Shown here: positions 35,444 to 42,398 of the stretch, piece by piece
Layout: the number at the start of each line of letters is the position of its first letter
Numbering within the stretch: position 1 is the stretch's first letter
From: Brevinematales bacterium
Lineage (GTDB): Bacteria > Spirochaetota > Brevinematia > Brevinematales > Thermospiraceae
NCBI GenBank assembly: GCA_013177995.1
Contig: JABLXN010000010.1
Coordinates: 1 to 56,796 of the forward strand
Direction of reading: 5' to 3'
Length of the DNA: 56,796 nt
Program-made: the position numbers and the translations under genes
Notes under the pieces: generated by a model
Databases searched by the model: none
What the model was told of the DNA's origin: nothing
The model's input: the letters and a program-made list of their open reading frames with translations, nothing else

Positions 35444-35470
35444 TCAAGTTTTCGTGAAAAAAAGCGATAT
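35444..35470 (+). promoter_or_regulatory. Candidate sigma-28 (FliA) type promoter
   Basis: TCAAGTTT at 35444-35451, an 11-bp spacer, and AGCGATAT at 35463-35470, compared with the consensus TAAAGTTT-N11-GCCGATAA (7/8 and 5/8). A TATAAT at 35472-35477 lacks a usable -35, so sigma-70 use is less likely but not excluded. Confidence 0.4.
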
Positions 35471-35513
35471 CTATAATAGCAAGGATGCGAAAAAGAGTTC
35501 AAGGAGGACAAGT

Positions 35514-35807
35514 ATGCGGATTGAAAGTATAGGGTCACCCCCTTATCAACAACCTCATCCTGCGCCTACCCCTCAGGAGAAACAGGCTCTCGAGAACGAG
35601 ATAGCGGAGGTGAAGCAGGAACTCCAGAAAGAAGCTGAGCAGAACAGCCAGAAAGAAGCGGCCAAAAGAGAATTTGAAAGACAGATTCGGCTGAACGAAT
35701 ATTACATCAAAGAGCTTCTTTTCCTTTTTAGTTCAAAAGGAAACGCTGAAACCATTGAAAAACTGGCCAAACTGCTCAAAAAACAAAAAGAGATGCTCTC
35801 CCGTTAA
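35514..35807 (+). CDS. Small coiled-coil protein, unknown function
   Basis: 97 aa. A Pro-rich N-terminus (GSPPYQQPHPAPTPQEK) is followed by a continuous charged helix (about residues 24-95, Glu/Lys/Gln rich), compatible with a coiled coil. No signal peptide. The start is ATG 35514, chosen for aaggagg 8 nt upstream; an earlier in-frame start lacks a site. Behind a possible FliA-type promoter, so an accessory flagellar role is possible but unproven. Its stop overlaps the convergent gene's stop by 4 bp. Confidence 0.65.
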   Translation: MRIESIGSPPYQQPHPAPTPQEKQALENEIAEVKQELQKEAEQNSQKEAAKREFERQIRLNEYYIKELLFLFSSKGNAETIEKLAKLLKKQKEMLSR

Positions 35808-38167
35808 TTTCCCCGTTCAAAAGCGTATATTTCCATAACGTAAAGTTTGCCCTCATGGAGTACAATCTTCCAGATGTAAGGCTTGTAAAGCTCAGGGGAA
35901 AAGGGAGGGCTTCCCTCGAAGAAAACCCTTTTCCAGCCTGTTTCATCGACAATCTCATACATGGTGACCTCTTTCTCGTGGTGAATACCTACAGGGGTGG
36001 CAATATATACCCCATAGCGAATATGCTCACATTCTTTGAGAAAGTTTCGGCGAAATTCATTTACGTATTCCTGGTAGGGGTCAAGAGGATGACCCTTCGC
36101 ATAAAGTCCACACACCTCTTCCAGGGGGCGTTGAGGACAGGCAAGGGGGAGAAGGGAGGCCTGGTTTTCATACCAGAGTTTCTCTTCATCGAACAGAAGT
36201 TCTGAGTTTGTTTTCTGATGTTCCTGAAGAATGGCGAGTTTATAACCGTTTTCTGGTTCCAGATCATCAAAGAGGCCTATCTTGAGCCATTCTACGAGAG
36301 TTCGCCGGCTGAGATGGGGATGTTTGTGAAGGAAGTCAAAGAAGTCTTTGTAAGGTTGGCGAGATACTATCAGTTCTTTCATCGAAAGAGGAATATGGTT
36401 GAAGTGCCGTAACCCCAAACGTATTTTTCCATGTTCTCGTATGTCCTCGATACGACTCAAGTTAGCAGAAGGTGGGAGAAATTCCACCCCCCAGACCAAG
36501 CGTGCGTAGAGAATGATCCTGTTTTTTTGTTTTGTGTGATGAAAGTAGTTGAGGGTAGCGACAGTAAATTCAAGAGGATATTTTTGACAGAGGGAGAGCA
36601 AAAGACTGGGGCCAAACCAACGGAGTTTTTCTTCTTTTTTGGAGGGAAGGTATTTTCCCTCTTGTAAGAGCATAAGCCAGTAATGAGAACGGAGTTCTTC
36701 TGGTGGTATGGTTTTTTCTATCTCATGTTTGAGGATAGGCCACCGGGGATCGTCTTTATGAAGGAGAGAAAGAAATTGTTTGGCTTTTTCGAGGGGGATA
36801 AATCGAGAGAGATAGACCTGAGCTTCTTCTCTATACACGAAGGGACTGCGAAGGAAGGGGTGCATGACGCGGGAGATTTCTCGAAAGAGGTCCTTCTCAG
36901 TGGGAATCACGTGGTGTCTCTGGACGAGAAAACGGAGATCGGTGAAAACAGGATGATCCGTCCATCGGAGGGCCAGGGGAAATTCATGTTTGAGAGGGAT
37001 ATCGTAGCGTCTGAGGTTCTCAAGAATGTCCCACACCCAGTGGGTCTGAAACTTGAGAAGGACAAGATCCTCTCCAAAGTGGAGAATGTCTTCTGTGGTC
37101 TGAAGGATGGGAATACCCTCAATTTCTCCTACGAGAGAGAAGTGGTTTTCTATTTCCCTGCGGCTGAGAAGAAGGCTATACCGGTGGTCTTTTCTTGAGA
37201 TCCAGCCTATGTTTTTGGGATAGTGCAGAGAGAACCAGCGGAGAAGGTGAGAGAGAACACGGGAGGGAAGAAAAAGAACGAGTTTTTTGGGCCGGATCTG
37301 AAAGATGACTGATTGAATGAGTTTTTTTGTTTTTCTTTTTTCGTGGAAAAAAGGGGTAATATTGACAGGAGCCGTATGGATAAGAAAGGGAGAGCGGTAT
37401 CGGATGAGTCGTTCAAGAAGGGAGAGGGTTGTCGTTGTAAGCCAGGAGGGGGAAGAGGCATCTTTTTCGCAAAGAGGAGAAGTGGTTTCTTCGGGGGGAT
37501 GGTAGGGAGAAAGAAAAGGGACATAAGAAAGAAGATGAGAGACCTCCTCGAGAAATTCGGGGTGATTGTGAAAAATTCTCTGCACCTCTTCATAGGAAAG
37601 AAGGGTGTCTTTTTTCTCCTGAGGAATAGAAGCCACAGTCCGGAGGGAATGTCGCTCTGTGAGAGAAACAAGCCTTCGCAGGCGTTCGATGGGTTTGGTT
37701 TCGGTGTAGGAACAGAGCACCCAGAAATGAGTGTCCCATTCCTTCTGGTAGTAGCTCAGCGCTTTCTCGGCAAGTTGTTCTTCTTGTTCTAGTTCTTCTC
37801 CTACGAGGAGAAACACATCTTTTTTATACCGGATGAGAACATCAGCAGAAAGGGTTTGTTTCTGGTGTTTGTGAACAAAGGTGACAAGGGTAGAGAGGCT
37901 TTGAATACCCTGCTGGGTGCAGGCTATTACTATGGCGGGGAAGGCCCTTTTCCCTCCGGGGGCATGGGTCATGACTTCTATCGCATAGACAGGCTTCAGG
38001 TTGTAGCGTTTGGCTATGAGAGCAAGAAGGGCAAAGTGCTGGGTAGAATACCTCTTGACAAAAGAGATGGCCTCCCATCCCCATTGCTGGTAGAGAGAGG
38101 CCACTTCCTGGAGTTCAAAGCGAAGGGAGGAACCCTGCAGGGAAAGAACAAGATGTGTCCAGAGCAT
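35804..38167 (-). CDS. DnaE-like protein without a recognisable polymerase core
   Basis: 787 aa versus about 1150 for DnaE. Segments that align by eye: N-terminal PHP-like domain (residues 1-230) with its metal histidines gone (THLVLSLQG in place of HxH); GEDLVLLKFQTHWVWDIL near 372, like the LGLVKFDFLG block; KYPLEFTVATLNYF near 535, like YPxEFMAALL; then VEFLPPSANLS and IRLGLRHFNHIP near 565-590, the tandem HhH entry; SRRTLVEWLKIGLFDDL near 620; GHPLDPYQEYVNEF near 680; and an OB-like C-terminus (YEIVDETGWKRVFF). The palm aspartates and GPGRGSAAG-type block are not seen. Probably a DNA-binding or regulatory paralogue. It starts 2 bp after the lipoprotein gene. Confidence 0.7.
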   Translation of the reverse strand: MLWTHLVLSLQGSSLRFELQEVASLYQQWGWEAISFVKRYSTQHFALLALIAKRYNLKPVYAIEVMTHAPGGKRAFPAIVIACTQQGIQSLSTLVTFVHKHQKQTLSADVLIRYKKDVFLLVGEELEQEEQLAEKALSYYQKEWDTHFWVLCSYTETKPIERLRRLVSLTERHSLRTVASIPQEKKDTLLSYEEVQRIFHNHPEFLEEVSHLLSYVPFLSPYHPPEETTSPLCEKDASSPSWLTTTTLSLLERLIRYRSPFLIHTAPVNITPFFHEKRKTKKLIQSVIFQIRPKKLVLFLPSRVLSHLLRWFSLHYPKNIGWISRKDHRYSLLLSRREIENHFSLVGEIEGIPILQTTEDILHFGEDLVLLKFQTHWVWDILENLRRYDIPLKHEFPLALRWTDHPVFTDLRFLVQRHHVIPTEKDLFREISRVMHPFLRSPFVYREEAQVYLSRFIPLEKAKQFLSLLHKDDPRWPILKHEIEKTIPPEELRSHYWLMLLQEGKYLPSKKEEKLRWFGPSLLLSLCQKYPLEFTVATLNYFHHTKQKNRIILYARLVWGVEFLPPSANLSRIEDIREHGKIRLGLRHFNHIPLSMKELIVSRQPYKDFFDFLHKHPHLSRRTLVEWLKIGLFDDLEPENGYKLAILQEHQKTNSELLFDEEKLWYENQASLLPLACPQRPLEEVCGLYAKGHPLDPYQEYVNEFRRNFLKECEHIRYGVYIATPVGIHHEKEVTMYEIVDETGWKRVFFEGSPPFSPELYKPYIWKIVLHEGKLYVMEIYAFERGN

Positions 38168-38169
38168 CC

Positions 38170-39642
38170 CTATTCAAGGACTATTGTGAGTTGTTTAGCG
38201 GCGGCATTCACAAACGCCTGCAAAACATCCTCTTTTTTTGTCGCGGAGGCCGTAATTCGGGTGTTTTCGGTCTGAAGTACCTCTTTGTTTTCGATGTCCA
38301 CCATCTGAAGAGAGACCTGATAGGCTCCGATATATCGCCCTACCGTTTCATTGTAGGATATATCCGATGGCATAACGCTCACAATCACTACCTGTGAAAT
38401 CCCCTGGCTTTTCAGAAGAGAGAAAACAGAGGGGTTGAGATCCACAAGGTCTGAAGCAGATGGCCTTTCAGAAACTCGTTTGATCTTGTAACCACGTTTA
38501 AGGATGGCACTTTCCATTTCGGTTTCTAAGGCTTTGAGGGTTCGCCATTCGCTTCCCTCCTGCACAAGACAGAGAACAGCCGTTGTTCGTTCCTGTTTTT
38601 TGAGAGAAACACTCTTGAAGGATACGGTGAGTTGAGATTTACTGACGGCATCCCTGAGTTGAGTATACAGAGGTTTGTAGGCATCACCAAGGGAAAGAAG
38701 TTCTGGAAAATCCATATCTATGGTAGCTGTCATACGATTTTCCGGGATACTATTCTTGAGATTTTGAATTTCACAGATCACCTGTCCATTTTTCCCCGAG
38801 AGAACAGAGCGTGTCCATTGACCGGTATTTCCTCGCAGAGCAAAGGAAACGGGAATACCTTCCACAGGTTGTTCCTGGTTTCCAAGGTAGATAACCTGAA
38901 AGGTGAGTTTTCCTCCCCTATCGGTATCAATCGTTTGAGGAATATTCACAGCCCGAATACGGATATTTTGAAGAAGGGAGGTGGCTGAAGAGGCATAGAC
39001 GGCTATCTCATCTCTGCGTTCTTCTACTTGGGTGGCACTGACAATGGCTCTCTGGTAGGCTTCAATAGCCTCCCGGATTTGTCCTTCTTTGACGGCATTT
39101 TCTGCTCTGCGCAGATTCTCATCAACAAGGGCAAGTTTTCTGGCCAGCTCAGAGAGGATACGTTGTCTTTCGTTTTCCATAGCGGATCGACTAATCTTAG
39201 CCTGGACCCACACACGGGTATACTTGAGGCCATCTTCATTGACATCCTCTGTGTACTGTTGAACAATCTCTACCCCTGTGAGACGGGCTACTGATCGGCT
39301 GCGAACAGACTGTCGAAACTGGGTTTTGAGACTTTCTTTTGAATCTTCGCTTATCATTCCGTAGGACTGGATTTGTTTGTCCACTTCAGCCTGTTCAAAG
39401 ATGGTGTTGGCTATTTTGGCTTTCGCATCAGCGAGAGCCTGATCTTTGAGTTTCTCCAATACATCAATACCCTCGGCATATCCTACCGCATAGAAAAAGG
39501 TCTTGTCCTGAATGGTTTTGGTAATCCACTCCGGTTGTTTGGTGGTAGGAACGGTGGGAGATGAGGCCGCCCTTACGTTTTGGCCTCCACAGGCTAAAAA
39601 AATACCCATCATGAGAATGATCCCGCCTTTCAAAGACCTCAT
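38170..39642 (-). CDS. LPP20-family lipoprotein
   Basis: 490 aa from the ATG at 39642 (aaggag upstream). Lipoprotein signal peptide MRSLKGGIILMMGIFLAC, lipobox FLAC. The domain after it (PEWITKTIQDKTFFYAVGYA, then ADAKAKIANTI) is the LPP20/LpoB-like start found in surface lipoproteins. A TPR-like helical pair follows (AENAVKEGQIREAIEAYQRAI) near residue 200, then beta-rich segments. The C-terminal third (VVIVSVMPSDISYNETVGRYIGAYQ) resembles a CsgG-like transport-associated fold. Outer-membrane or periplasm facing; precise role unknown. Single promoter upstream. Confidence 0.75.
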   Translation of the reverse strand: MRSLKGGIILMMGIFLACGGQNVRAASSPTVPTTKQPEWITKTIQDKTFFYAVGYAEGIDVLEKLKDQALADAKAKIANTIFEQAEVDKQIQSYGMISEDSKESLKTQFRQSVRSRSVARLTGVEIVQQYTEDVNEDGLKYTRVWVQAKISRSAMENERQRILSELARKLALVDENLRRAENAVKEGQIREAIEAYQRAIVSATQVEERRDEIAVYASSATSLLQNIRIRAVNIPQTIDTDRGGKLTFQVIYLGNQEQPVEGIPVSFALRGNTGQWTRSVLSGKNGQVICEIQNLKNSIPENRMTATIDMDFPELLSLGDAYKPLYTQLRDAVSKSQLTVSFKSVSLKKQERTTAVLCLVQEGSEWRTLKALETEMESAILKRGYKIKRVSERPSASDLVDLNPSVFSLLKSQGISQVVIVSVMPSDISYNETVGRYIGAYQVSLQMVDIENKEVLQTENTRITASATKKEDVLQAFVNAAAKQLTIVLE

Positions 39643-40778: not shown

Positions 40779-42398
40779 TTAGTATTCCACGTTCTTTTCG
40801 GTAAAGATCCACTGCAGCAGGGTAGCGATCATCACAAGGCCAAAAAGGATAACCGCAATAGCGGAGGCATATCCCATTTTGCCCCATTTGAAGGCGTTGT
40901 TGTAAACATAGTACACAATGGTTGTGGTTGCACCGGCTGGGCCTCCTCCTGTGAGAGCATACTGAGTTCCAAAAGCCTGGAAGCCACCGATAATACCCAT
41001 CACAAGGATGAAGAAGTTGGTAGGACTGAGAAGTGGCCAGGTGATGTGCCAGAATTGTTGCCATGGTGTTGCCCCATCGATTTCTGCGGCTTCATAGAAA
41101 TCCTGAGAGATTCCCTGCAGACCGGCAAGGTAAAGCATCATGTTGTATCCAGCACCCTTCCACACATCCACCACGATAATTGATACCTTTGCCCATGTTT
41201 TGTCCCCTAACCAGTTGGGTGGGTTGGAGATACCGATAGTTCTGAGAATGCCATTGATGATACCATAATCTGGATTGAGGAACCATCGCCAGACAAGGGC
41301 TACGGCCACGATATTGGAAATCACAGGCAAAAAGTACATCACACGAAAGGCCACAATACCCTTGAGGGGCATATTCATGGCCAGAGCCATGATAAGAGAA
41401 ACCATCATCCCAAGAGGAATACCTAACAGGAAGATGAAGGTATTGAAGAGATACTCCTTGAACCGGGTATCACGGAGAAGAATATCTTCAAAATTCCTGA
41501 GGCCTACAAACTGAAGACCATTGTTTCCTGTTGCCTGAACAAACTTGATATAAGCCTCAACTCCCTCTACAGCTGGTTCGATCTTGAGCTTCATGCCCAA
41601 GAGAGAGGTTTCACTACCCATTTCTCCTGTTTCCGTAGCCTGCACGGAGATAGGGGCTGATTCAATTTTGCCAGCCGGAATGGTAGTGCCCTGAGGAAGT
41701 TCAAAGAACCACTCTCTATCACGAGGAGCCTCAGGGAGTTTCAAAAACATATCGGCTACAATCGTAGTCCCCGCAGGGATAGTGACTCTTTCGTTTTTGG
41801 TGCTTCGGACGACGATTTCATGGCCTGGTTTGGTCAGATCAAGACCAATAGCCACTCCTTCCACAGGAGTTTCCCATCGAAGATTGGCCGACATGATTTC
41901 TGTTCGCGAGAAGAACAGATCTCCCTCTTTTACAGGGGGGACATCCTTGGGAAGTTTCTCACTCACGATATCAAGGATTTGTCCCCGTTCGTTGGTATAA
42001 AAGGTCCATTGCCTAAGAGCATTCATATCCCCCAGAGAAAGGGTGTTTTCTTCGGGAGTGAGGACAATATCCTGGAGAATCTTGTAGGTAATAGGAATCT
42101 GGGCATCTTTGTAGCCCACCTTGCGAGTCTTCACAGAAAGCTTTGCCCCCGATGGAATGGTAATGGTAGTATTCGTGGCCTCTGTGGTTCTCTTGAAGGC
42201 CACCCTCACCTTGGCCGGGCTTGCATACGAAAGCCCATCCCATTCGGTAAAAGCCAGGTAAAAGGTAAAGAAGATAGGGAAAAACGTGATGAGCAAAAAT
42301 CCGATCAGGTTTGGAAGCAAAAACCCCCATGCCGTTAATGCTTCTTGCAACCGCTTCTGGAAAATATACTTGCGGTTGTCCGGTGATACCTGTGCCAT
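40779..42398 (-). CDS. Sugar ABC transporter permease, MalF type, with a large inserted domain
   Basis: 539 aa against about 300 for a typical CUT1 permease. The first membrane helix is at residues about 24-48 (FLLPNLIGFLLITFFPIFF); the usual continuation FVGLRNFEDILL appears only near residue 285. The intervening roughly 235 residues are predicted outside the membrane and contain repeats (TITIPSGAKL, TIPAGTTIVA, TIPAGKIESAPISVQATETG, VEGVE) that read like phage Baseplate_J sequence. The C-terminal EAA loop EAAEIDGATPWQQFWHITWPL is intact. E. coli MalF also has a large periplasmic loop, but elsewhere in the topology. First gene of the operon. Confidence 0.85.
   Translation of the reverse strand: MAQVSPDNRKYIFQKRLQEALTAWGFLLPNLIGFLLITFFPIFFTFYLAFTEWDGLSYASPAKVRVAFKRTTEATNTTITIPSGAKLSVKTRKVGYKDAQIPITYKILQDIVLTPEENTLSLGDMNALRQWTFYTNERGQILDIVSEKLPKDVPPVKEGDLFFSRTEIMSANLRWETPVEGVAIGLDLTKPGHEIVVRSTKNERVTIPAGTTIVADMFLKLPEAPRDREWFFELPQGTTIPAGKIESAPISVQATETGEMGSETSLLGMKLKIEPAVEGVEAYIKFVQATGNNGLQFVGLRNFEDILLRDTRFKEYLFNTFIFLLGIPLGMMVSLIMALAMNMPLKGIVAFRVMYFLPVISNIVAVALVWRWFLNPDYGIINGILRTIGISNPPNWLGDKTWAKVSIIVVDVWKGAGYNMMLYLAGLQGISQDFYEAAEIDGATPWQQFWHITWPLLSPTNFFILVMGIIGGFQAFGTQYALTGGGPAGATTTIVYYVYNNAFKWGKMGYASAIAVILFGLVMIATLLQWIFTEKNVEY

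Follow-up and report, generated by a model that had tools for sequence, protein, structure and literature searches.

What can be left for a DnaE protein to do once its polymerase core is gone? The question is raised by a gene found in the window analysed here (the whole 56,796-nucleotide stretch of contig JABLXN010000010.1 from a Brevinematales bacterium, whose 2.38 Mb genome, G000, is estimated to be 100% complete). The ORF lies on the minus strand at positions 35804-38167 (ATG at 38167, stop codon at 35804 included) and codes for a 787 amino acids-long protein. A first-pass annotation had taken it for a DnaE paralogue stripped of its polymerase core, and the ORF proved to be real with these boundaries. 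The genus is represented by two further genomes, whose orthologues are also encoded by the minus strand (L024:7772-10117 and L025:8185-10548) and share the MLWTHL start with the G000 protein. The descriptive part of our answer, comprising homology to DnaE, loss of the catalytic motifs, purifying selection, an intact polymerase as orthologue and the presence of a separate full dnaE gene, is very probably correct on the sequence evidence. The complete reading, in which the core of a second DnaE was lost along the stem leading to the genus and the remainder was retained as a pseudo-polymerase with a clamp or DNA accessory mechanism, is put forward tentatively, with prospects slightly short of even.

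HHH_6, the tandem HhH domain, is the sole Pfam match of the 787-aa protein (E 5.8e-8) and exceeds the cut-off in all three species (G000, G001, G002). In the G000 protein, the C-terminal half is recognized by NCBIfam models of DnaE (E 1.5e-13). There is no Pfam PHP match in the protein itself, whose metal ligands are lost, though it aligns to the PHP domain of intact paralogues; among its two orthologues, the one from G002 matches Pfam PHP over the cut-off (8.5e-8) and the other falls just under it (4e-5). Profile-profile comparison with an intact paralogue (hhalign) aligned 776 columns end to end with a probability of 99.7% and an E-value of 1e-26. A sequence search of the PDB returned weak matches only: Taq Pol III alpha was hit by way of the HhH region, and Geobacillus PolC by way of the PHP domain. 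The similarity is far above chance and, taken with the tree grouping presented below, indicates that the protein is homologous to DnaE along its whole length by common descent. Structure prediction was uninformative: AlphaFold2 yielded no confident structure for the full protein (two sequences; pLDDT 34) or for residues 430-787 (pLDDT 46), and a Foldseek search of the PDB with the latter model gave no match at E <= 0.001. Its weak matches included several OB or cold-shock folds; the model was not used as evidence.

The alignments define the following organization (all coordinates on the minus strand). The protein starts with a PHP-like domain (residues 1-182, 37622-38167) that is 25-29% identical to that of the intact paralogues and is further supported by the Pfam matches of the orthologues. 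A shrunken palm/thumb remnant (residues 241-366, 37070-37447), the least conserved stretch, is followed by a fingers-like region with FQxES-like and YQEQ-like blocks (residues 367-555, 36503-37069) and by the clamp-binding HhH domain recognized by HHH_6 (residues 556-640, 36248-36502). The sequence ELLFDE (residues 655-661, 36185-36205), in the loop that follows the HhH domain, stands where DnaE has its internal clamp-binding motif; the protein ends with an OB-like region (residues 673-787, 35807-36151). Conservation is highest in the PHP-like, HhH and C-terminal OB-like regions. The order of DnaE segments that had been read by eye is upheld in the main. Its PHP-like domain and the LPPsaN/IRLGL entry to the HhH domain stand, and its OB-like end is supported by global alignment with the OB end of the intact paralogues and, weakly, by an OB-like pattern of five strands in the low-confidence model. 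The YPxEF block is present in this species but is not preserved in its two relatives. The supposed LVKFDFLG-like block (EDLVLLKFQTHWVWDIL) was misassigned: its counterpart in the alignment is the FQxESxGM block further along, in the fingers, and the block bearing the third catalytic aspartate is deleted.

The polymerase core is indeed missing. None of the three members of the genus has the motifs PDxDxD, GxGRGS or LxKxDxLGL, and Pfam detects neither PF07733 (palm/thumb) nor PF17657 (fingers) in the proteins of G000, G001 and G002. The same motifs, GxGRGS being followed by A or S, are present in the intact paralogues and in the DnaE1 proteins of the order, where they hold the places of the E. 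coli catalytic aspartates D401, D403 and D555. About 245 residues are gone, mostly from the palm/thumb, with about 30 missing behind the PHP domain. The loss of the PHP histidines noticed at first pass also holds in a ligand-by-ligand comparison (HTH is replaced by WTH and TDH by KRY, among other changes). Several of these ligands, such as the TDH and YH histidines, are missing from the intact paralogues as well, so that the PHP site was lost before the polymerase. The glycines of the first HhH hairpin have disappeared (the sequence is IKGMGEG in DnaE1 and FNHIPLS in the core-less form), and DNA binding mediated by this domain may therefore be gone. The C-terminal tau-binding domain (CTD) of DnaE1 is found neither in the core-less protein nor in its intact relatives, which end after the OB-like region.

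A separate full dnaE gene is found once in each of the three genomes, as the first-pass annotation had suggested checking. In G000 the only PF07733 match is the 1168-aa DnaE1; a split gene with the core encoded elsewhere in that genome was rejected on this basis. The origin of the core-less form is best seen in the sister families f2 and f3 of the order Brevinematales, which carry an intact second DnaE of 1014-1033 aa (L026:4838-7939, L027:8464-11517, L028:9077-12121, L030:5327-8428) directly behind an orthologue of the lipoprotein gene that precedes the core-less one. These intact proteins have a partly lost PHP site, form a clade of their own and score higher on DnaE1-type models than on those of the error-prone DnaE2. 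In a maximum-likelihood tree the three dead and five intact forms are grouped with support of 100/99, a grouping to which synteny lends independent support. The dead forms sit on a long stem (2.85), and because of this long branch the grouping itself is more secure than the point at which they attach among the intact forms. The simplest history is that the core was lost once, along the stem leading to the genus, from a second DnaE with a previously impaired PHP site. A scan of 296 genomes of the phylum (Spirochaetota) returned, besides the core-less forms, nearly exclusively DnaE frames of ordinary length (about 1000-1220 aa); the few shorter ones (G006, G011, G027 and, presumably, G209) are cut frames, by a contig end or a run of N in G006 and G011. 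Within these 296 genomes the core-less form is therefore known only from this genus, in three genomes. A contig scan gave one related locus, in the metagenome-assembled genome that is G001, and the viral contigs searched contained no relative.

How could such a protein work? We propose that it would act by binding, through its preserved parts, as an accessory sitting on the sliding clamp and/or on DNA. The working parts would be the scaffold derived from PHP, the HhH domain together with the clamp-type LF, and the OB-like end. It might hold the clamp against other users, as a regulator or place-holder, or it might recruit another enzyme. Among the roles first suggested, clamp binding is possible and draws on two to four residues: L658-F659-D660-E661 are invariant among the three members at the clamp-motif position, where the LF of QxxLF is kept and its glutamine is absent. 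Note that the DnaE1 of G000 also lacks this glutamine (GVAGLF). Binding of tau, suggested at the same time, is improbable because there is no CTD in the core-less protein or in its intact relatives. We rank the clamp or DNA accessory first, a function unrelated to DNA second and a relic third.

The second of these readings, in which the DnaE frame is reused for a new function unrelated to DNA, possibly with an envelope link, starts from the neighbouring gene. An LPP20-like lipoprotein is encoded on the minus strand directly upstream (38170-39642, with the conserved Met at 39642 taken as its start; read as the longest ORF, the frame extends to 39891), and its stop codon lies 2 bases ahead of the dnaE-like ATG. 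It has an LPP20-like N-terminus and a weak Big_1-like match mid-protein; a distant paralogue occurs elsewhere in most genomes of the order (in G000 at C9:34671-35741). The lipoproteins are 31-37% identical across families, and the lipoprotein is the kept partner of the dnaE-like or second dnaE gene in three of them (f1, f2, f3), the neighbouring genes differing otherwise, so that the pair forms a conserved unit; neither gene was found in family f4. This tight and conserved pairing would fit a non-DNA function, as would the erosion of the catalytic, PHP and HhH signatures together, the new conserved C-terminal sequence and the many tryptophans (15-27 in dead forms versus 3-5 in intact ones). 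The first-pass annotation had found a dead polymerase in an operon with a lipoprotein unexpected. The arrangement is there but is not peculiar to the dead form, since intact polymerases are paired with the same lipoprotein gene, and the pairing therefore predates the loss of catalysis. The MLWTHL start, moreover, corresponds to the beginning of the PHP domain and is not an evident signal peptide, so that the two products would reside in different compartments. With the HhH domain and the clamp-type LF also kept, we consider a function away from DNA unlikely. Two other ORFs in the vicinity may be mentioned. A small ORF coding for a 117-aa coiled-coil-like protein (35454-35807) is convergent with the dnaE-like gene, with overlapping stop codons, and is kept in G001 but was not seen at the corresponding place in G002. 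In a sugar-transporter-type permease of 539 aa (40779-42398), the first membrane segment is followed by a long insertion; the frame of this permease is also long in G001 (595 aa).

A third reading takes the gene for a relic in slow decay, dispensable, without function of its own and kept only by co-transcription behind an important lipoprotein gene. It is the fastest-evolving gene among those compared: the core-less DnaE of G000 is 59% and 46% identical to its counterparts in G001 and G002, versus 82% and 73% for the lipoprotein partner and 88% and 80% for DnaE1, which implies a weaker constraint. The core, the PHP ligands and the HhH glycines were lost step by step, and the absence of the gene from f4 argues that a second DnaE is dispensable in the order. 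Against this, the frames are open in all three species, which share the same losses, and neither the frameshifts nor the decay expected of a pseudogene was found. The nearest pair, at 35% nucleotide divergence, would have accumulated about 26 stop codons under neutrality (25.6 expected without selection; minimum 11 in 500 simulations). Its dN of 0.31 and dS of 1.99, the latter near saturation (the other pairs are saturated), give a dN/dS of about 0.16, and identities at the three codon positions are 0.69/0.79/0.46. Many W, Y, P and G positions are invariant along the length of the protein, and the tryptophan increase suggests remodelling rather than mere erosion. The core-less DnaE is, by these measures, kept under purifying selection and not a decaying pseudogene, and the relic is a rather improbable explanation.

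A role in mutagenic repair, in the sense of ImuB/DnaE2, had also been suggested, the dead DnaE serving as a clamp-binding scaffold in an error-prone mutasome. Mutasomes with a dead polymerase do have a precedent in the dead Y-family protein ImuB (PMC6511836), and the lineage descends from an accessory DnaE without CTD, a trait shared with DnaE2 (PMC3919608). The expected partners, however, were not found: PF00817 has no match in G000, G001 and G002, no Y-family polymerase was detected in the f1, f3 and f4 genomes, and no LexA DNA-binding domain exceeds the cut-off in any of the 13 genomes of the order (G000-G012). A classical SOS mutagenesis system is apparently missing from much of the order, though other SOS regulators may be present. 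The intact relatives score as DnaE1-type over DnaE2 and do not group in the tree with G019_3 and G020_2, which are accessory DnaEs from two further spirochaetes; a Y-family gene is located 2 kb from one of these two DnaEs. The absence of both partners makes a mutasome role very unlikely. That the protein is still active, other residues having come to form a new polymerase or nuclease site, is barely credible: archaeal PolB2, long predicted to be inactive, did prove active (PMC8764526), but in the core-less DnaE the catalytic segments have been removed outright instead of being substituted, and the PHP ligands are lost as well, so that a similar surprise is unlikely.

The accessory pseudo-polymerase that we favour can be set against several known systems. 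ImuB, core-less PolX-like proteins and inactivated archaeal B-family polymerases (PMC2527604) are likewise homologues retained without synthesis, but they belong to other polymerase families. The passages concerned of a 2026 survey of bacterial polymerases (PMC12926913) describe inactive C-family PHP domains, dead Y-family members and core-less PolX-like proteins. According to the corresponding part of Timinskas et al. (PMC3919608), C-family polymerases occur in every bacterial genome surveyed, their catalytic aspartates are absolutely conserved, and sequences without an intact active site were removed; surveys that demand an active site would, by this exclusion, be unable to see core-less DnaEs. 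No dead C-family member is mentioned in the keyword passages of these two articles from the open-access literature. The protein may be the first natural C-family pseudo-polymerase, a dedicated non-catalytic clamp or replisome accessory derived from the intact accessory polymerase of the sister families, a proposal that we consider somewhat less likely than not. It shares with DnaE1 (Pol III alpha) the order of PHP, fingers, HhH and OB-like regions and differs from it by the lack of palm catalytic motifs, PHP ligands and CTD, a normal DnaE1 being encoded elsewhere in the genome. With DnaE2/ImuC it has in common the condition of an accessory DnaE with no CTD and an inactive PHP domain, but not the polymerase core, the ImuB-type Y-family partner or a LexA in the genome. 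The closest likeness is to the intact second DnaE of f2 and f3, which has the same lipoprotein synteny, end-to-end homology, no CTD and a PHP site already partly lost, and differs by its PDxDxD, GxGRGS and FIKxDxLGL motifs, that is, by an apparently active core. The core-less and intact forms, at an equivalent locus in sister families, make a clean before-and-after pair in which one can ask what the non-catalytic parts of a DnaE do alone.
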